A stretch of DNA of 49,093 nt from a virus. The DNA lies in IMG/VR virus record IMGVR_UViG_3300032235_000849, positions 1 through 49,093 of that record. One strand, 5' to 3'. Positions 9,328 through 25,284 of this stretch are shown here, in pieces; the stretch's first letter is position 1, and the number at the start of each line of letters is the position of its first letter. The position numbers and the translations under genes were made by a program. The notes under the pieces are model-generated. The model was not told where the DNA came from, did not search any database, and was given only the letters and a program-made list of their open reading frames with translations.

Positions 9328-12300
9328 TTATTTAGAATTTACTTCAAGAATTTCCACTCTTGCATTAAGTTCTTTAATTGCCTCAATTAAAACCGCAATT
9401 AATCCGCTATAATTTACAGTTTTGTTATTTTCGCCATTTACAAGTTGAGGTAAAACTAATTCAAGTTCTTGGGCAATTACCCCAAGTGAAGGTTTGTTAC
9501 TTTCTTTCCAAGAGAATTTAACACCACGGATACTTTCAATAATTTCCAATCCATTATTAATAGTTTCAATATTCTTTTTCAATCTTTCGTCGGAACCAGA
9601 ATTAATATCTCCACCAACAGTTAATGATCCAGAAGAAGCATCAAATGTAAATGCTACAGAAGCAGTCTTAATACTTGGTGTTTGATTTCCATTGCCGGTA
9701 ACAAATACTGGATAATAAGATCCAGTTGTTACTGAAGCAGCATTAATAATGTTTGAAGGACCTGTAGCACCTTGAGCACCCTGAGCCCCTTGTGCGCCTT
9801 GACGACCTTGAACTCCTTGAGGTCCTGTAGGTCCTACTGCACCTTGAACACCCTGAGGACCTGTTCCTCCAATTAAACCAGTTGAACCTTGGACACCTTG
9901 AGGTCCTGTTGGTCCTGTTGGCCCATTTGGACCTATAGCACCTTGAACACCCTGAGGACCTGTTGGTCCTGTTGGTCCTGTTCCACCAGTTGAACCTGAT
10001 GAACCTGTTGCACCTTGGACGCCTTGCGTTCCTGTTGGTCCTGTTGGTCCTGGTGCTCCTTGACGACCTTGGGCACCCTGAACTCCTTGAGGTCCTGTAC
10101 CACCAGTGGGACCTGTTCCGCCAGTTGCACCCGAAGCACCTTGGACACCCTGTGGTCCTGTTGGTCCTGTTGGTCCAGCAGATCCAGTATTTCCTATTCC
10201 ACCCTGAACTCCTTGTGCTCCTTGGACTCCTTGGGCACCCTGAACACCTTGTGGTCCTGTACCACCAGTTCCACCAGAAGCACCCTGAACGCCTTGAGAT
10301 CCCTGAGCACCCTGGGCACCTTGACGACCTTGAGCACCTTGGACACCTTGAGATCCCTGGACACCTTGAGATCCCTGGACACCTTGTGATCCAGTTGATC
10401 CAGTTAAACCTTGAGAACCTTGTACACCTTGACCGCCAGCAGCACCTTGACGACCTTGAGCACCTTGGACACCCTGTAAACCTTGAGGTCCTACAATTTG
10501 TCCTACACTATCCCAATCGGTTCCATTATATACCCAGAGACTACCAGAGTCTTGAGCAATAACGCCATCACCAGTAGAAGGTGGATACCATACAAATCCA
10601 GTATCATTAGCAGTTAAAGTAGTATTTGGAGAAGAAGTTGTTACTGAAGGTACTGATCCAACAATTGTAATTGAAGTTCCAGATTGACCCTGAGATCCTT
10701 GAATACCTTGATTTCCTTGAGCACCTTGTACTCCTTGAGAACCTTGAGCACCTTGGCGACCTTGAGCACCCTGTGCTCCAACAGAACCTTGAATACCCTG
10801 AGGTCCAATAGATCCAACAGAACCTTGAACACCTTGAGATCCTGTAGCACCTTGAATACCTTGAGGTCCTGTTGGTCCCGTTGGTCCTGTTGGTCCTGTT
10901 CCACCAGTAGAACCTACTGAACCCTGAACACCTTGAGATCCTGTTGGACCTGTTGCACCTGTTGGACCTGTTGCACCTGTTGGACCTGTTGCACCTTGAA
11001 CACCTTGCGCACCAGTAGGTCCTGTTCCGCCAGTTCCTCCCGAAGCACCCTGTGCCCCCTGAGCACCTTGAGCACCTTGGCGACCTTGAGCACCCTGTGC
11101 TCCAACGGCACCTTGAACTCCTTGAGCACCTTGAGATCCCGTTCCACCAGTTCCGCCTGAAGCACCTTGAACACCCTGAGAACCCTGGACACCTTGTGCT
11201 CCCTGGACACCTTGGGCACCCTGGACACCTTGTGTTCCTGTTGATCCTGTTGATCCTGATGGTCCAGTTGGTCCAGTTGATCCAGTTGCACCTTGAACTC
11301 CTTGTGCACCTTGAATTCCTTGTGCACCTTGAATTCCTTGTACACCTTGTGCACCTTGTGCACCTTGTACACCTTGTGCACCTTGACGACCTTGAGCACC
11401 TTGGACACCTTGTAAACCTTGAGGTCCTACAATTTGTCCTACACTATCCCAATCAGTTCCATTATATATCCAAAGATTCCCGGTGTCCTGAGCAATAACA
11501 CCATCACCAGTTGAAGGTGGATACCAAGAGAATCCGGTATCGTTAGCAGTTAAAGTGGTGTTTGGAGAGGAAGTTGTAACAGAGGGTACTGATCCAACAA
11601 TTGTGATTGAAGTTCCAGAAGAACCTTGAACACCTTGAGATCCTTGAGCACCTTGAGATCCTGTAGCACCTTGAATACCTTGAGGTCCTGTTGGTCCCGT
11701 TGGTCCTGTTGGTCCTGTAGTTCCTTGAACACCTTGAGATCCTGTTGGACCTGTTGGACCTGTTGCACCTTGAAGACCTTGGGCACCCTGGATACCTTGT
11801 GCGCCTTGAACACCTTGAGCACCTTGAACACCTTGGGCACCTTGACGACCTTGGGCACCTTGAACACCTTGAGATCCTGTTGATCCTGTAGCACCTTGAA
11901 TACCTTGAGCTCCTGTTGGTCCTGTTGGACCTGTTCCCCCAGTTGAACCCGATGAACCTGTTGCACCTTGAACACCTTGTGGTCCTACAGGGCCAGTTGG
12001 ACCAGTTGGACCAGTATTTCCTTGAAGTCCTTGTGGACCTTCTGGGCCATTTGGTCCATTTAGACCAAGATCACCTTGAGGTCCTGTTGGCCCTGTTGAA
12101 CCTTGAACACCCTCAAGTCCTTGTGGTCCTGTAGCACCCTGAACACCTTGTGGTCCTGTAGCACCCTGAACACCTTGTGGTCCTGTTGGACCTGTTGGAC
12201 CTGTTGGTCCTGTTGGTCCTGTAGTTCCTTGAACACCTTGTGCACCTTGGACACCTTGATAACCTTGAGGTCCTACAATTTGTCCTACATTATTCCATAC

Positions 12301-17640: not shown

Positions 17641-20600
17641 TTATGCGTAAGTTGCAAAGACACCAAGAACTTCCCAAACAGAACCAACTCTAAAAATACT
17701 AAATCCAAAGAAATAATATCCAGCAGCAGTTCCCGTTGGAGAAATATCGTTTAACCAACGAATGCTATTTCCACCAGTATTTAAAGCAGTTCCATTAATT
17801 TGGAATTGAATATTTGCAAGATTTGAAACTGTTGTTGCCGCATTCATTATAACAGAGTAGTTCATTGCCCTTGCGTCTGTAGTTGGAACATTAGTAATGT
17901 TAATTATAGATACGTTTGTGCTTGTAGTTCTGGTAATTGGTCCTTGTGTGAAATCGCAAGTTAATGTAGAACCAGATCTATTAACGTATATATCAGATAT
18001 TTGAGTAAAAGTACAAATACCAGAAGAAGTATCTCCCGCACGATTGAATGGGGAGTATCCAAGTCTTGAAGGAATATCCGCATACCACTCACCTCTTTGA
18101 GCACCACTTAGATTATGAATAAGGTGAGAAACATTTCCATTAATATTATTTGAAGAATCTCTACGAACTATTGTATTCGGAGAGGTAGTTGCTGCAGATA
18201 CAAATCCATCAAGATAATTTGCATTTAGATTAGAAACTAGTGTGCTTGATGCAACACTGATTGGAGAAGTTCCTGTAGTGACTGTAGAAATAAATCTTCC
18301 TGCAGTAATAGTAGAATTTCCAAGAATCGTGAGTGTCCCATTACTTGAAAGACTTGCAACCTCTGTTGTTCCACCATACCACTTAAAGTTATAAGAATTA
18401 TTTTGTGGAACAGACCACCATAGAGAGTCATCGGCACCAATACCAACAGCATAGTTTGTGTTGGTAGCATTAATTTGATTCTCGTAGATAATCCTAGATC
18501 CAAGACTTGTTGTTCCAAAAGATGGAGACGCATATCCTAGATTTCCATCTCCAGAAATTTTAAAGTCAATGATATCAATTGGAGCATCCAATCTAATAGT
18601 TGCAAGACCGACTGTTGGATTAAAATTGACTCTAATATCAAATCCAAATCCATCTTTTGATCCTAGAAAATTAAGTGCATTTGCATTGCCAATAAAAGAT
18701 CCTGCTGAAGAAATACCAATCGTATTAATTGGATCACCTTCAAAATAAACTGTTGTAATTCCAGTTGCAGAATCATAGTCTTTGCTAATTGTTAGTCCAA
18801 TACCAACAAGATTAAGTAATGTAGAGAACCCTACAGGACCGCTATTATTTGAAATTCCAATTCCATATAGATAATCACTGATCCAACCGTAAGGATTCCA
18901 CTCATTATTTGTAGTATAAATCCAACCTGCATTTTCTCCAATTCTTGGAGTTGCATTATATTGAACATCTCCAGGGTTTCCTGCAACTGTTGGAATGTTT
19001 TCGCCAATTGTATATTTTCTAGAGACCTTTGCATCGCCCTGTAGGAATAAAGAGTTAACCTCAAAACCTTTCGCAGATGTTGAAGTAACCTTATCACCAA
19101 AGATTACTGGACCATTAAACTCAGAGATTGCTTCTCCATCAAATCCACCCTCAACCTTAATCGAACGTAAGAAATTACCCTCAACTGGAGTAATAACGTT
19201 AAGGGAGGGTTGATTTCCAATATCATCCCCAGTAACAGTTTGAATTGGAGTATCAAAAATTTCTTCCTGTCCAGTGACTGTACTTAACTTCTTGTTACCA
19301 GAGTAAGAAATACCCTTGTCATTCATACCAGTGTAGAAGTTAATACCTCCTTCTCTTCTAGTTGATTGTGCAAGAAGTTCCTCTTGTGCAGAAATCTGGC
19401 GATCTTGTTTATCTGGGAATGCAGTAGAATAATTACCAGGACCAAATCCAACATACTCAAAGGTATGTCCAGAAGCACGTATGATTGAGTGTCTTCTGAA
19501 TTCAATTGGAGTTACTGAGACTTTTCTAACAACCGATCCAACAACGTGCTTGCTTGCCCTTGAACCAAGAACACCACGGAAAACATAAACAGGATCTGTG
19601 GAAGAAATTGTTGGAGAAACGGTTGTCTTAACTCTTACAAGTTCATCATCGATTTGCAGATAATCGCCAATTCTAACATCTAACCTATCAATGCCACGTA
19701 TTAAAACTTCATCGGTGATTTCATCGCTAACTTCATAAAGAAGAGTTGTGGTGATACCAGCATAATTTGCAATCATTCTGCCAGTAAGGTTTTCATTATC
19801 AGCAGAAATGACTCCATCATTAGAAGTAACACCTTCGCGATGAGCAAAGATTGTACCAGATACTGAAGGAACACTAGTTGAAATACCAATATCAACAATA
19901 AATGTCGATAATCCTACATTTTTAGTAACTACAAAATCACCATTATAAAGATTTTGAGTTGCTCCAGATAATCTAATTTTGTTCCCAACAGAAAGTCCAT
20001 GATTAGGAGAAGCAGTAACAGTAGCAAATCCAGTTACATTATTATATCTAATATTACTAACTGAAAGTGCTTTACCAGTAAGGTAAACAAATGCATCTTG
20101 AGTGAGAGATGCGCCAACATTTGTCGAGAACCCAGAAATTGATTTTGTAGAAACTGCGGTAAAACTCTTTGCAGATCCAACAGCAACATTAGTGATTCTA
20201 TAAAGATCATTATAACCTTTATAAGAAATAGAGGAAACACCAGAAATTCTAACAGTATCTCCTACGTTATTATAGACTCCTGAAACTTGGAAAACTGCTC
20301 TTTGGAATCCAGAAGTAGTTGCAACACCTACAACAGAAAGAGTATTGCCAATTCCATAGGCACTACCACCATCCATAATCTGAATAGCAGTAATATTACC
20401 TGTTGGGTTAACAGTAATTTTAGCAGTTGCATTATTTCCAGTTGTGGATCCAGCAAATCCTACAAGTCTTACGTTATAGAAACTTTCAGTTCCACCTTGC
20501 CCATATCCAACCCCAGCATATACAGTGTTCAGTTTTGTAATTCTATTCAGTCCGTGATCAATTGAAGTATGAATAGTGTGAGAAGTTGCATTAGACGAAA

Positions 20601-23600
20601 TAATATTTGTAAGACCTACACCAACATCGGTATCTGAAAGAACCTTAGTGATTGTTTCTTTGGTGATACTCTTTCTTACATCGTCCACAACGACTTCACC
20701 AATAACTGCAGAAGATGCAAATGATTTTGCTTCGTCCGGATCCGATACTGGATTATCTCTACTAACTTGAGGATAAAGTTCTTTAACTGGTTGTGAGTAT
20801 TTTTCTTCAGTAAATGGAGCAACTGTTGGAGAATTAGAAGCATTAACTAAAGTTAGATAATAAATACCATCCTGCTTTCCAGGAACATACTTCTGTGCTT
20901 CTTGATTTCTATAAACATAATATGTATTATTATATCTCTTTCTCTTGAAATATGGAAGAGTTGTATCTCTTGCAGCAGTGTTGTTTGCAAAAGTTCCTGG
21001 GTTAGTGCTTAAAGGGACAACAAACTCTTTTGCACTCGTAATTCCAGCAACAGTGAAAGTGCCATTAAATCCAGAATTTCCCGCACCAAGTGGATTTACT
21101 GCACTTCTAATATTGAGAATTTCAACTTGTGCTCCAACTTTAAGGTTATGAGGAATTTCAGTAGAAACTTTTGCAGTATTTGATGACGAACTCCAATTTG
21201 CACCAGCAATAATTCTAAAGTTTCTTTGCTGATTTACATTTGCAATTGATCCAGCGCCAAAGTAAGTCTGAAGTTCACTTGTAGATGCTGTTGTATTATT
21301 AGACTCTTGAATAATAAATCCATCACTAGGTGGTCTTGCATATGCGCCACCAACAGAAGCAGGAATTACATAGCGAACTCTGTAAATCGTATCTGTTGCA
21401 TTTCTATTGTATTTTCTTCTACTAAAATATGTTCTTGCGGTTGCAGATCCAAGAGAAGTTGTTCCGAGACTAACAATTGTCGGACGAATAGTATTATCTG
21501 TAGAAGATGTTGAAACTTTTACATACCATTGCCCAACTGCTGCATCATATTGAATTGGATGCCCAATATCTCCAGGATTTTTATCCGAAACTCTACTTAC
21601 AACACTTAATGCACCACCCTTACTGTTAATTGTTAGAGCACTTGCATTTTTAGCATCATTTAAAGTTTTTGCAAGTTTGATATTTACGCTTGTAGTCAGT
21701 CCAGATGTAATGGCATAATAAACCGTATTTGGAGTAAGTCCATCAGGAAGTTCTCCAGTATCACTGAAGACACGAACTGTTTCTCCATTCTGGAAAGTAT
21801 GTGGTGCGGTTAGAGTAATAACATTTGCTGCACCACCAATGCTATATGTACCAATACTACTAATTCCTACAGAACTTACACCAACAGCAAAAGACTTTTC
21901 ATAACTCGTTTGGGAGTTTGGCATTACAATTCTAGAACTATATTCTGCAGAAGTTCCTCCTACAGAAATAAGAACTTTTAAGGAATCATTTTCTCTTGCA
22001 CCAATTCTATAACCTTCAAGGAAATGCTGTGGCGGAACATCTGAATTAGTTTCGTTGTATAGGTAAAGTCTTTCATTTGTGGTTCCAACACCAACTGTTG
22101 TAGCAACATCTATTGCACTGAATTCAACAGAAATTTCATCATTAGGAAGTTCTTTTGGTGGAATGATGTGAGTGATATATCCAAAGTCATCTTGAGGAAA
22201 TGCATTCGTTCTAAATCCAGATGCTACAAGAGACTTCGCCCCAAAGTTTGAGTTGGAATTAGTAACTGATTGATCACCACCACTTTCAGCAACAAAATGT
22301 TCAGCATATCCAATTGCAAAGATTGAAACGTTCTGAATAAACGCATCATTAACACACTTTATGTGGAAATTTTTATATTCTGGTTTAAAAATTGCTCTCG
22401 AATTAGTGCTGATTGTTTCATTTCCAGCAAAAGTATTATCCTGATATGTGCCAGTTGTTTCATCATAAACTACAAAAGCATTATCATCCTTCTGAAGTCC
22501 AATTCCAGTGAATTGGGCAATAACCATAGACTTGAATCCAGATGCTTTACTTCCATCAGCAAGCACACCACACATTCCATAAACAGATCTCAATGAAATA
22601 TTGAAGATGTATGGAGATGCTGATGTTACAGTGTCTGATGAAAGTGATAAAGTAGATCCTAGAGGAGAAGGAAGTGCATTTGAGGGTGCGTTCTGAACTT
22701 GATACGTAATTCTAGTACTATTAACTTTTTCAGAAACAATAAAGCTTCCGTTATATCCATCTGCACTAATACCTTCAATTCTTATTGGAGAATCAACTTC
22801 CAGTCCAGTAATTTCGGAAGATACGTCAACAGTAATTGTTTTTGTTGCGTTAATGCCATTTCCAGCACGAATACTTGAAATACCTACAGACAGTCCAGTA
22901 GAACCTACAATTCTATACTCATCAATCTTGGGTTCAATATCAAGAGAAGTAGATGGATAATCAGGTTCAATCGAACGACCCGATGCTGCACCATAAGCAA
23001 GACCAATTTTTTCATAATACATATCCAAATCAGTGCGATCGGTTGAATATGTTTGAAACTCATCATCGATCGAAACATTATTTACACCATCTGCATACTC
23101 AAAACAAGTGAGTTTGTGGTGAGAGAAATTAGGAACAAATAGATTGTCAGTATAATCAATATAGCACTGACCACTTGGATCAGCATCAAACATAGAAAAC
23201 TGCCAGAAATAGCATCCACCAGTTACGCGGAAAATTGTAGATCTTTCAATATTATCATTTACTGGATTTGGAACATACTTTGGTCTAATTTTTGTTTTTC
23301 TTAAATCCAATCCAACAAGTGAAGTTCCTCTAGGTACAATAACTCCACCATGAATACTGTTTAATTTGTAGAGAGCATTATTTGGATCGCTCAAATCAAA
23401 GTTGGATGATGCCTCAAATGGTGGGAAATCATTAGATGCCTGTCCGGTTCTGAGTCTAAAATTATTTGATCCATCAGGAATCCATCCTGGACGGTTATCA
23501 ATAATATGATCGCCCGGATAAACTAAAATAGTCGTCTTGCCAAATCTATCGTTATTCAGTCCCCTCTGATATGAAAATCTTGCTGCCTCAATCAGTGCCC

Positions 23601-23739
23601 TCTGAATAGTTTTAAATGGTCGAGTTAGACTATTTCCTTTATTCTCAATCGAGTCTGTCGAATCAAGACTATTCGGATCGACATATAAAATAGTACCACG
23701 AACAGATTTCAGGAAGTTATCCAGGCGTGAAAGACCCAT
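17641..23739 (-). CDS. Giant tail-fibre/virion protein (2032 residues)
   Basis: The longest protein of the window. The first ~150 residues (GTILYVDPNSLDSTDS, PFKTIQRALIEAARFSYQR, TILVYPGDHIIDNRP) begin a pectin-lyase-like beta-helix. A VSIFAIGYAEHFVAESGGDQ block near 470-490 matches the 900-residue fibre. The middle contains many Val/Ile/Gly/Ser beta repeats of unknown fold. Near the C-terminus are a fibre shaft segment (VASSTLVSNLNANYLDGF) and a Ser/Thr-rich end lacking an S74 domain. It probably spans from the baseplate outward as a long fibre or large spike. A GATAAATA late promoter lies 32 bases upstream. Length and type are common in cyanomyoviruses, but the gene cannot be equated with a T4 gene. 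Confidence 0.75.
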   Translation of the reverse strand: MGLSRLDNFLKSVRGTILYVDPNSLDSTDSIENKGNSLTRPFKTIQRALIEAARFSYQRGLNNDRFGKTTILVYPGDHIIDNRPGWIPDGSNNFRLRTGQASNDFPPFEASSNFDLSDPNNALYKLNSIHGGVIVPRGTSLVGLDLRKTKIRPKYVPNPVNDNIERSTIFRVTGGCYFWQFSMFDADPSGQCYIDYTDNLFVPNFSHHKLTCFEYADGVNNVSIDDEFQTYSTDRTDLDMYYEKIGLAYGAASGRSIEPDYPSTSLDIEPKIDEYRIVGSTGLSVGISSIRAGNGINATKTITVDVSSEITGLEVDSPIRIEGISADGYNGSFIVSEKVNSTRITYQVQNAPSNALPSPLGSTLSLSSDTVTSASPYIFNISLRSVYGMCGVLADGSKASGFKSMVIAQFTGIGLQKDDNAFVVYDETTGTYQDNTFAGNETISTNSRAIFKPEYKNFHIKCVNDAFIQNVSIFAIGYAEHFVAESGGDQSVTNSNSNFGAKSLVASGFRTNAFPQDDFGYITHIIPPKELPNDEISVEFSAIDVATTVGVGTTNERLYLYNETNSDVPPQHFLEGYRIGARENDSLKVLISVGGTSAEYSSRIVMPNSQTSYEKSFAVGVSSVGISSIGTYSIGGAANVITLTAPHTFQNGETVRVFSDTGELPDGLTPNTVYYAITSGLTTSVNIKLAKTLNDAKNASALTINSKGGALSVVSRVSDKNPGDIGHPIQYDAAVGQWYVKVSTSSTDNTIRPTIVSLGTTSLGSATARTYFSRRKYNRNATDTIYRVRYVIPASVGGAYARPPSDGFIIQESNNTTASTSELQTYFGAGSIANVNQQRNFRIIAGANWSSSSNTAKVSTEIPHNLKVGAQVEILNIRSAVNPLGAGNSGFNGTFTVAGITSAKEFVVPLSTNPGTFANNTAARDTTLPYFKRKRYNNTYYVYRNQEAQKYVPGKQDGIYYLTLVNASNSPTVAPFTEEKYSQPVKELYPQVSRDNPVSDPDEAKSFASSAVIGEVVVDDVRKSITKETITKVLSDTDVGVGLTNIISSNATSHTIHTSIDHGLNRITKLNTVYAGVGYGQGGTESFYNVRLVGFAGSTTGNNATAKITVNPTGNITAIQIMDGGSAYGIGNTLSVVGVATTSGFQRAVFQVSGVYNNVGDTVRISGVSSISYKGYNDLYRITNVAVGSAKSFTAVSTKSISGFSTNVGASLTQDAFVYLTGKALSVSNIRYNNVTGFATVTASPNHGLSVGNKIRLSGATQNLYNGDFVVTKNVGLSTFIVDIGISTSVPSVSGTIFAHREGVTSNDGVISADNENLTGRMIANYAGITTTLLYEVSDEITDEVLIRGIDRLDVRIGDYLQIDDELVRVKTTVSPTISSTDPVYVFRGVLGSRASKHVVGSVVRKVSVTPIEFRRHSIIRASGHTFEYVGFGPGNYSTAFPDKQDRQISAQEELLAQSTRREGGINFYTGMNDKGISYSGNKKLSTVTGQEEIFDTPIQTVTGDDIGNQPSLNVITPVEGNFLRSIKVEGGFDGEAISEFNGPVIFGDKVTSTSAKGFEVNSLFLQGDAKVSRKYTIGENIPTVAGNPGDVQYNATPRIGENAGWIYTTNNEWNPYGWISDYLYGIGISNNSGPVGFSTLLNLVGIGLTISKDYDSATGITTVYFEGDPINTIGISSAGSFIGNANALNFLGSKDGFGFDIRVNFNPTVGLATIRLDAPIDIIDFKISGDGNLGYASPSFGTTSLGSRIIYENQINATNTNYAVGIGADDSLWWSVPQNNSYNFKWYGGTTEVASLSSNGTLTILGNSTITAGRFISTVTTGTSPISVASSTLVSNLNANYLDGFVSAATTSPNTIVRRDSSNNINGNVSHLIHNLSGAQRGEWYADIPSRLGYSPFNRAGDTSSGICTFTQISDIYVNRSGSTLTCDFTQGPITRTTSTNVSIINITNVPTTDARAMNYSVIMNAATTVSNLANIQFQINGTALNTGGNSIRWLNDISPTGTAAGYYFFGFSIFRVGSVWEVLGVFATYA

Positions 23740-23770: not shown

Positions 23771-23778
23771 TATTTATC
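23771..23778 (-). promoter_or_regulatory. T4-type late promoter, GATAAATA
   Basis: Matches NATAAATA on the minus strand, 32 bases before the ATG at 23739. It lies just beyond the intrinsic terminator of the upstream island, so it gives the fibre gene an independent start. Confidence 0.65.
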
Positions 23779-23780
23779 AT

Positions 23781-23805
23781 ACAACAAAACCTCCCGAAGG
23801 AGGTT
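23781..23805 (-). terminator. Intrinsic terminator of the small-gene/tRNA island
   Basis: On the minus strand, AACCTCC and GGAGGTT form a 7-bp stem closed by a stable TTCG tetraloop (23788-23805), followed by TTGTTGT. No T-run follows on the plus strand, so it acts for leftward transcripts. Confidence 0.8.
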
Positions 23806-23850
23806 CTGAAGTCACACTTTTTGGGTCACTGTAACGAAATAGTATCGTCT
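23783..23850 (-). ncRNA. Candidate small non-coding RNA (~68 nt)
   Basis: A full-consensus promoter (TTGACA, 17 bases, TATAAT) at 23856-23884 is followed about 45 bases after its predicted start by the hairpin terminator at 23788-23805. The transcribed stretch has no ATG-started reading frame on the minus strand. The predicted product runs from about 23850 to 23783. Besides the terminator hairpin it holds a possible small stem (ACGA / TCGT). The alternative is an early promoter for the 2032-codon gene attenuated by this terminator. Exact ends are estimates. Confidence 0.5.
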
Positions 23851-23855
23851 TGTAT

Positions 23856-23884
23856 ATTATAAGACTTTTAACGCTTTATGTCAA
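23856..23884 (-). promoter_or_regulatory. Consensus sigma70 promoter (TTGACA-17-TATAAT)
   Basis: The -35 box TTGACA is at 23879-23884 and the -10 box TATAAT at 23856-23861, with exactly 17 bases between. It lies just after the stop of the 57-codon gene and points at the ncRNA and terminator. Confidence 0.8.
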
Positions 23885-23889
23885 CATAC

Positions 23890-24063
23890 TTACTCACTTT
23901 GTTTGCATTCTAACATGTATTCTACAGTATTTGCTACATCATTCATAGCATCACGAAGAAATGGTTGTTGTCCAGATTCTTGTTTGATGATTGGTCGCGA
24001 ATCATCAGTGAGTGTCCATCTCCACTGCTTCATATCCCTACAATACCAGAGATTAATTTTCAT
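23890..24063 (-). CDS. Small hypothetical protein (57 residues)
   Basis: I take the ATG at 24063, giving MKINLWYCRDMKQWRWTL onward, rather than longer upstream in-frame starts whose translation looks non-coding. The protein is rich in Trp and Tyr at the N-terminus and ends in an amphipathic helix RDAMNDVANTVEYMLE. It resembles short conserved cyanophage proteins of unknown function. It overlaps the upstream 52-codon gene by 11 bases, suggesting coupled translation, and is the last gene of the island before the terminator. Confidence 0.6.
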   Translation of the reverse strand: MKINLWYCRDMKQWRWTLTDDSRPIIKQESGQQPFLRDAMNDVANTVEYMLECKQSE

Positions 24064-24602: not shown

Positions 24603-24929
24603 TTAGAGGTTGATTATACCTCCATGAACCATACGATGACAATTTGCACAGAGAACAACACATTTGTCAATTTCCTCTTGAAGTTTTTTATAACTAGAAG
24701 ATTTTGCAAGTTGTGCTACTCTTTCGTCTTTTTGAGATGGGTCTAAATGATGCAAATCCATTACAATAGAATCATATTTAACTCCACAAGCAGCACAAGG
24801 TTTATCTTTTGCTGTTTTAATCATCTCTTTTCTCTTTAACCAACTTGTTTGTTTTGATTTTGGTAGTTTATTTTGAGATGCCCAGAGTTTTTGGTATTCT
24901 TTTTGTTTTTGTTTGTCTTTGTATGGCAT
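24603..24929 (-). CDS. HNH endonuclease
   Basis: A 108-residue HNH-family nuclease. I chose the ATG at 24929 (MPYKDKQKQKEYQKLW, a very common opening for phage HNH proteins) over a TTG three codons upstream. The basic N-terminal ~40 residues precede a zinc-binding CAACG pair and the catalytic MDLHHLDP stretch. The second zinc pair CANCHRMVH lies near the end. The four Cys and the His cluster needed for an active beta-beta-alpha-metal site are present. Such genes often behave as free-standing homing endonucleases. This one lies between the two tRNA genes, a favoured insertion site for phage mobile genes. Confidence 0.85.
   Translation of the reverse strand: MPYKDKQKQKEYQKLWASQNKLPKSKQTSWLKRKEMIKTAKDKPCAACGVKYDSIVMDLHHLDPSQKDERVAQLAKSSSYKKLQEEIDKCVVLCANCHRMVHGGIINL
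24613..24642 (-). promoter_or_regulatory. Sigma70-type promoter (TTGTCA-18-TATAAT)
   Basis: The -10 box TATAAT is at 24613-24618 and the -35 box TTGTCA at 24637-24642, inside the end of the HNH gene. Predicted start ~24606, about 29 bases before the ATG at 24577; it would also drive tRNA-Thr. A TCTAAATA string at 24600-24607 overlaps the start site and is an alternative late element. Confidence 0.5.
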
Positions 24930-24965
24930 AAGGTTCAAAGTAACTAATAGTTATTTAGAACCTAA

Positions 24966-25039: not shown

Positions 25040-25046
25040 AAAAAAC

Positions 25047-25250
25047 TTACGCTTTGTAAGTAATAGGATTATACTTGATGTACTCCCAAAATGTCAACTT
25101 CATTTCTTTTTGTGACATTCCACAGTGTTTTGCTGCTTTAGGAAGATTCCACTTTGCCGCAAAAAGTGCTTCATTTGCCTCTTTTACATTCTCAGGAGTG
25201 GTTTTGACTGATTCCTCTTTGAGGTCTTTGTATGAGATTTTATAAGTCAT
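25047..25250 (-). CDS. Small hypothetical protein with helix-turn-helix-like segment
   Basis: The ATG at 25250 gives 67 residues (MTYKISYKDLKEE...); an in-frame TTG three codons earlier is less likely. Residues ~34-55, NLPKAAKHCGMSQKEMKLTF, have the spacing of a helix-turn-helix: an Ala/Gly-containing first helix, the GMSQ turn, then a second helix. A DNA-binding role is possible but unproven. It lies 7 bases before tRNA-Leu, and the tRNA promoter sits inside its 3' end. It is probably transcribed from the promoter at 25521. Confidence 0.55.
   Translation of the reverse strand: MTYKISYKDLKEESVKTTPENVKEANEALFAAKWNLPKAAKHCGMSQKEMKLTFWEYIKYNPITYKA
25068..25097 (-). promoter_or_regulatory. Sigma70 promoter for tRNA-Leu (TTGACA-18-TATAAT)
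   Basis: The -35 box TTGACA at 25092-25097 and the -10 box TATAAT at 25068-25073 are both perfect, 18 bases apart, inside the last codons of the 67-codon gene. The predicted start near 25061 leaves a ~22-base leader before the tRNA. Confidence 0.7.
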
Positions 25251-25284
25251 GTTTTTCAAAAAAGTAATAGAGGCATTTTTTACC

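Follow-up and report, generated by a model that had tools for sequence, protein, structure and literature searches.

We interpret a short minus-strand stretch upstream of the tail fibre gene of a T4-like cyanophage as the gene for a phage antisense small RNA that ties up or destroys the host tRNA-Val(CAC), a reading to which we assign a probability of about 0.6; transcription, its timing, pairing in the cell and any effect on translation are inferred. The DNA itself displays a promoter–terminator cassette whose body is complementary to this one tRNA, and the complementarity is conserved, specific and found again at unrelated loci. The virus thus probably uses a small RNA to hobble host protein synthesis, an effect that likewise remains an inference.

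Organisation of the locus

The window, i.e., the whole stretch of DNA that was analysed, is a 49-kb IMG/VR fragment (49,093 nt) of a T4-like cyanophage. The initial annotation had described, without assigning a strand, a full-consensus TTGACA-17-TATAAT promoter, a short stretch with no reading frame, a TTCG-capped terminator and a late promoter beyond it. All four were recovered, and the whole arrangement lies on the minus strand:

23890–24063, minus strand: conserved cyanophage protein, 57 aa, upstream of the promoter
23856–23884, minus strand: sigma-70 promoter TTGACA-17-TATAAT (12/12), found by pattern search and kept in relatives at the same place
23884–23879, minus strand: −35 box TTGACA
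23861–23856, minus strand: −10 box TATAAT, after a 17-nt spacer
23781–23851, minus strand: putative anti-tRNA-Val(CAC) small RNA, ~69 nt, with an inferred start at 23851–23849 and an inferred end near 23781
23841–23847, minus strand: CGATACT, complement of the tRNA-Val T stem/acceptor stem 3' strand (AGTATCG)
23823–23831, minus strand: CAGTGACCC, complement of the variable loop and T stem 5' strand (GGGTCACTG)
23812–23817, minus strand: GTGTGA, complement of the anticodon loop TCACAC (anticodon CAC)
23788–23805, minus strand: intrinsic terminator AACCTCC-TTCG-GGAGGTT, followed by TTGTTG
23771–23778, minus strand: T4-type late promoter box GATAAATA, identified by sequence and kept in relatives, serving the fibre gene
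17641–23739, minus strand: tail fibre gene, 2032 codons, with its ATG at 23739, downstream of the RNA and not part of it

The promoter matches the sigma-70 consensus at 12 of 12 positions and is one of only two such sites in the 49 kb, the other lying at 25097–25068; a reversed control pattern gave no matches in the window. Sigma-70 and late promoters have been predicted by consensus in 16 cyanophages (PMC3037559). The ~69-nt body between the promoter and the TTCG-capped terminator is non-coding and holds no gene. The 71-nt stretch has a folding energy of −22.3 kcal/mol, whereas shuffled sequences averaged −14 (z −3.2); nearly all of this stability is contributed by the terminator. The terminator is present as initially described, but a tetraloop terminator alone is a generic feature and does not make the locus special: its exact sequence occurs in more than 100 viral contigs and in many enterobacterial phages.

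Conservation of the cassette and diversity of the RNA body

A query with the first 200 residues of the fibre protein retrieved 80 IMG/VR loci. Conservation among relatives, which the initial annotation had named as a check, was borne out, with promoter, short RNA, terminator and late box recurring at the same place in most of them. The common order in most of the compared relatives is TTGAC(A), a spacer of 17–18 nt, a TATAAT-like box, 55–75 nt, the terminator, ATAAATA and ATGGG. The cassette is kept upstream of the fibre gene although the gene located 5' of it varies among relatives. The terminator is also retained; its stem sequence differs freely while the antisense block described below is kept.

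Several unlike types of RNA body were found between these signals. Type A, the type of the window, is represented by GACGATACTATTTCGTTACAGTGACCCAAAAAGTGTGACTTC and type B by GGCGATACTTAACCAAACCCCTTCCGTGTGCTTC; type C consists of GTGTGAAGGAAGTGCG placed directly at the inferred start, and type D is represented by TTCCTTCCGTGTGAA. The type A cassette also precedes a different gene at three loci.

In a number of relatives the promoter is situated inside the last ~30 codons of the preceding gene, which is either an unrelated ORF (ending in LTWKEEKWYNN) or that of the 57-aa protein (ending in ILDNELKEE), so that promoter and protein sequence are jointly constrained there. A group of ocean fibre relatives (six loci) lacks the element and has another conserved leader, in which the late box is preceded by runs of AAAAAATCCCC and TTTTTTT.

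Complementarity to host tRNA-Val(CAC)

The type C block was scanned against 84,980 bacterial and archaeal genomes. It matched many cyanobacteria, always in the antisense strand of one tRNA gene, identified by ARAGORN as tRNA-Val with the anticodon CAC. GTGTGAAGGAAGTGCG had also been considered as a possible start-site element, as a mini-ORF or as a hairpin for protein binding; these interpretations were dropped when the genome scan revealed it as the complement of this tRNA. The search for targets in host and phage mRNAs that had been proposed for the locus would have missed the target, because this is a tRNA.

All body types are complementary to the tRNA-Val(CAC) of Synechococcus/Cyanobium. 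Types A and B cover its 3' half, comprising the anticodon loop, the variable loop, the T arm and the acceptor 3' strand; types C and D cover the anticodon arm and the D stem. In the fibre leader of phage S-B43 (positions 299–345 of the extracted locus), the antisense match is seemingly extended into the D arm (CCGTGTGAAGGAAG...CACTCTGTTGCTAATC).

Specificity was assessed with the 41 tRNAs of Synechococcus WH7803 as the target set and with 34 distinct bodies from upstream of fibre genes, a set selected through the fibre protein, independently of the RNA. Val-CAC ranked first among the 41 tRNAs by duplex energy for every one of the 34 bodies and by longest perfect complement for 33 of them. When both partners were allowed to fold, it was first in 25/34 and second, behind Val-GAC, in 9/34; types A and B can pair with Val-GAC nearly as well as with Val-CAC. 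Five tRNA bases, C33–C37 (the anticodon CAC plus AC), find their complement in every one of the 34 bodies and form the only such segment, positions outside it being matched in at most 26. Antisense Val-CAC matches of at least 10 nt are present in 34 of 58 distinct upstream regions, against 0–2 for any other tRNA, and no sense-strand Val-CAC match of at least 10 nt was found among these 58 regions. The mean predicted binding gain amounts to −16.3 kcal/mol for host Val-CAC, −1.3 for host Val-UAC and −1.2 to −6.0 for phage Val-UAC.

The window carries one of the more diverged variants, whose longest perfect block against tRNA-Val(CAC) is the 9-nt CAGTGACCC, and the locus did not stand out when the window was compared with host tRNAs by gapped similarity. 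The case for the window variant rests on duplex energy and on its relatives. Its predicted duplex energy is −37.8 with Val-CAC, −30.5 with Val-GAC and −24.9 with the next tRNA. For the 44-nt body paired with Val-CAC the value is −40.3 kcal/mol, which was reached by none of 2000 dinucleotide shuffles; the window energy was reached with any tRNA by 1 of 300 shuffles. The tRNAs in the shuffle test had stray end letters; the pairing obtained lies within the tRNA proper, and the result therefore appears unaffected.

As far as can be judged from sequence, these data support the view that the RNA body, beyond its promoter and terminator, is under selection for complementarity to tRNA-Val(CAC). The initial suggestion of an early phage small RNA is strengthened by this and by the conserved cassette, with transcription still inferred. 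The element also meets the sequence-based criteria for a trans-acting antisense sRNA, since it has its own promoter and terminator, is short and non-coding, and shows conserved complementarity to a defined target in trans, above controls.

The same element at other loci and in other phages

Outside the fibre loci, the element is located behind the major capsid gene gp23 in phages Syn9 (at 119424), Syn19, SynMITS9220M01, S-8S55 and S-CAM9. These gp23-linked copies begin a few bases past a late box or a TATAAT-like box and are then followed by a terminator; in Syn9 (DQ149023) a late transcript of 40–50 nt starting at CCGTGTGAAGGAAGTG would be predicted. Another group of cyanophages has the element before a phage tRNA-Gly(UCC) gene, behind TTGACA-TATATT promoters, and it was found before further genes too, so that the downstream genes include the fibre gene, the gp3 region, tRNA-Gly and others. 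Unless a tRNA gene comes next, the antisense strand nearly always continues into a terminator; on the opposite strand a terminator-like site is present in only 7 of 152.

In the tRNA-Gly group (four loci and others; positions 264–280 of locus L331), the promoter is followed by a hairpin without a U run and by the block joined to tRNA-Gly(UCC). RNase P would free the antisense block there as the 5' leader of this tRNA. At four further loci, the promoter of the anti-tRNA RNA overlaps the terminator of the preceding gene (CTTGACGACCTCTTTTTTTTATG).

An unbiased scan was performed on Syn9, S-SM2, Bellamy and S-CREM1 (~750 kb), cut into 20-kb pieces and compared with the 41 host tRNAs after masking of the phage tRNA genes. 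In each of the four phages the longest host-tRNA match is antisense Val-CAC (17 nt in Syn9 and S-CREM1, 16 nt in S-SM2 and Bellamy), every other host-tRNA match being at most 14 nt, and each top match is flanked by a promoter or late box on one side and by a terminator on the other.

The S-CREM1 copy (OP535465, 45436–45452) is an unannotated anti-tRNA-Val element with a sigma-70 promoter and a terminator, situated behind a tRNA cluster. The abiF RNA (RF03085) of the same phage was considered and proved to be a different element, located at 10531–10567; the window has no RF03085 match.

Among cultured phages, the element was detected in 11 of 19 Synechococcus phages and in none of 6 Prochlorococcus phages (one-sided exact test, calculated by hand, 0.017). 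Several of the 19 Synechococcus phages checked gave no match. The comparison is soft: the S-B43 copy was found only by reading the fibre leader, and other negatives may hide diverged copies. Matches in P-TIM68, P-HM1 and P-HM2 and second matches in Sf-FR1 and Syn19 were set aside, as they lie in open frames without a terminator.

The distribution of the element bears on three other explanations. The initial annotation had offered, as an alternative, an attenuated early leader of the fibre gene, in which transcription would start early, the terminator would stop most of it and read-through would be regulated. A promoter and a terminator placed directly upstream of the fibre gene, in an arrangement conserved there, are what such a leader would look like; however, the antisense block also occurs outside the fibre locus, downstream of gp23 and upstream of tRNA-Gly and of further genes, and a separate late box past the terminator serves the fibre gene. 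The terminator hairpin is moreover self-contained, its sequence being free to vary while the antisense block stays. We consider a fibre leader improbable and not supported on balance.

Complementarity to an anticodon loop beside a terminator is also the outline of a T-box, in which pairing with host tRNA-Val would decide whether the terminator forms. Several features make such a leader very improbable here: no alternative antiterminator fold was seen, the terminator stem and the antisense block are separate, the complementarity far exceeds one codon, and the downstream genes vary by locus without a link to valine. Rfam gave no T-box match at the locus or in the window.

Finally, the stretch could be without function at the RNA level, being either what is left of a tRNA gene or an attP site matching the host tRNA-Val(CAC) gene. 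Types A and B do resemble the inverted 3' half of the tRNA gene with a deletion, and integrases often use tRNA genes. The Phage_integrase domain (PF00589), however, is absent from 15 records of element-carrying or related phages, with a control detected in 14 of 14, and neither ARAGORN nor Rfam detected a tRNA gene or pseudogene at the locus on either strand. Rfam searches of the whole window, and of the locus at a relaxed threshold, returned two tRNAs and otherwise chance matches. The body types cover different parts of the tRNA, with only the anticodon loop common to all, and their orientation to promoter and terminator is constant; a relic would not be expected to persist between a promoter and a terminator at several loci. 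This origin, too, is scarcely credible to us.

Codon usage and proposed mode of action

Among the valine codons of the window, GUG is used least (4.4 per 1000), and GUU (40.1) and GUA (18.6) are used most. In hosts, GUG is the commonest valine codon, at 34.7 per 1000 in WH7803 and 40.7 in freshwater Synechococcus/Cyanobium loci. The examined phages encode tRNA-Val(UAC), which the RNA, by predicted binding, largely spares. By our own tally, tRNA-Val(CAC) is present in 152 of 163 Cyanobiaceae genomes of at least 2.0 Mb and in 24 of 137 smaller ones, which are presumably Prochlorococcus. If the antisense reading is true, it would provide a reason why Synechococcus but apparently not Prochlorococcus phages carry the element. 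The phage itself uses GUU heavily, which, together with the near-equal pairing of types A and B with Val-GAC, speaks against the antisense reading.

Under the proposed antisense mechanism, the host RNA polymerase would transcribe ~69 nt from the consensus promoter, by inference early in infection, and stop at the TTCG terminator. The first contact may form between GUGUG of the RNA and CACAC of the exposed anticodon loop, the only segment that no variant fails to match; an invading RNA would naturally find an open site there. The duplex could then spread into the 3' half of the tRNA in types A and B, including the window variant, or into the anticodon and D stems in type C. In this state the anticodon would be masked, charging or entry into the ribosome prevented, or the tRNA made accessible to nucleases, RNase III being one conceivable nuclease for a duplexed tRNA; a tRNA held in such a duplex is unable to decode. 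With less GUG decoding, GUG-rich host messages would be weakened and phage messages would pass, tRNA-Val(UAC), carried by the phages themselves, being left largely available. Such pairing cannot be taken for granted in the cell, because tRNAs are tightly folded and charged, and loss of Val-CAC may have a mild effect, since Val-UAC can probably also read GUG.

Pairing with tRNA-Val(CAC) or its fragments might also serve other ends. T4 relatives face anticodon nucleases (PrrC and others), and the invariant part of the element corresponds to the anticodon loop, where such nucleases cut; the RNA could shield the tRNA from a defence nuclease of this kind, soak up its products, or act as a protein decoy. 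Phages known to counteract nucleases of this kind do so by repair or replacement of the tRNA, whereas here the phage carries a different isoacceptor, UAC. Such a role against anticodon nucleases, or as a decoy, is possible, but we regard it as unlikely.

Taking silencing of tRNA-Val(CAC) as the working interpretation, a broader proposal is that a family of cyanophage antisense RNAs removes one host tRNA isoacceptor, chosen at the codon that diverges most between host and phage, i.e., a codon-directed shut-off by RNA, and that such RNAs are made early (sigma-70 promoters) or late (T4-type promoters) depending on the phage. For this combined proposal we see the chances as evenly balanced. If it is true, it would represent a new form of viral seizure of translation, in which one host tRNA is silenced by base pairing, in contrast to the import of tRNAs or enzymatic cutting, at a codon whose use differs eight- to nine-fold between host and phage. 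Antisense RNAs against single tRNAs could then also be designed directly on its model. Similar elements in the Synechococcus laboratory phages Syn9 and Syn19 make the hypothesis testable at once, and published Syn9 time courses may already hold the transcript.

Relation to known RNAs

Trans-acting sRNAs of phages and prophages resemble the element in being short, with their own promoter and an intrinsic terminator, and in pairing with host RNA, which for the element is inferred; the known examples pair with mRNAs or proteins, whereas the complement of the element is a mature host tRNA. The tRNA genes of T4-like cyanophages also adjust tRNA supply to AT-rich phage codons, and the same phages carry tRNA-Val(UAC); they add a tRNA, whereas the element would take one away. 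Host takeover by tRNA depletion, through T4-type cleavage of host tRNAs or anticodon nucleases, likewise targets host tRNAs, notably in the anticodon loop, but its agents are proteins, whereas the element would owe its specificity to an antisense RNA. T-box leaders likewise pair with a tRNA anticodon close to a terminator; the element differs by its lack of an antiterminator, its long antisense pairing and its independence of any one downstream gene.

Archaeal C/D box RNAs guide methylation, and tRNA-derived sponges are tRNA precursors that bind small RNAs. Both involve pairing between small RNA and tRNA sequences, as does the element, but neither is a viral RNA antisense to a mature tRNA. Non-coding RNAs reported for T4-like cyanophages comprise CfrI, PhotoRC-II, wcaG and the glutamine riboswitch (glnA), together with abiF in S-CREM1 (PMC9964418). 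The CfrI, wcaG, PhotoRC and glnA RNAs occur in the same phage group as the element but are cis-acting or antisense to psbA, and none of these four matches it. The literature searched, which did not extend to subscription papers, contained nothing relevant on a phage small RNA antisense to a tRNA, and within these limits we found no precedent for the silencing of a host tRNA by a phage antisense RNA.

Other features of the window

The second 12/12 promoter of the window (TTGACA-18-TATAAT, 25068–25097, minus strand) is situated within a 70-codon ORF (25047–25259) and ends 28 bases before tRNA-Leu(UAA) at 25040–24965. Between tRNA-Leu and tRNA-Thr, a 111-codon ORF (24603–24938, minus strand) resembles an HNH endonuclease (CAACG...DLHHLDP...CANCHRMVHGG).
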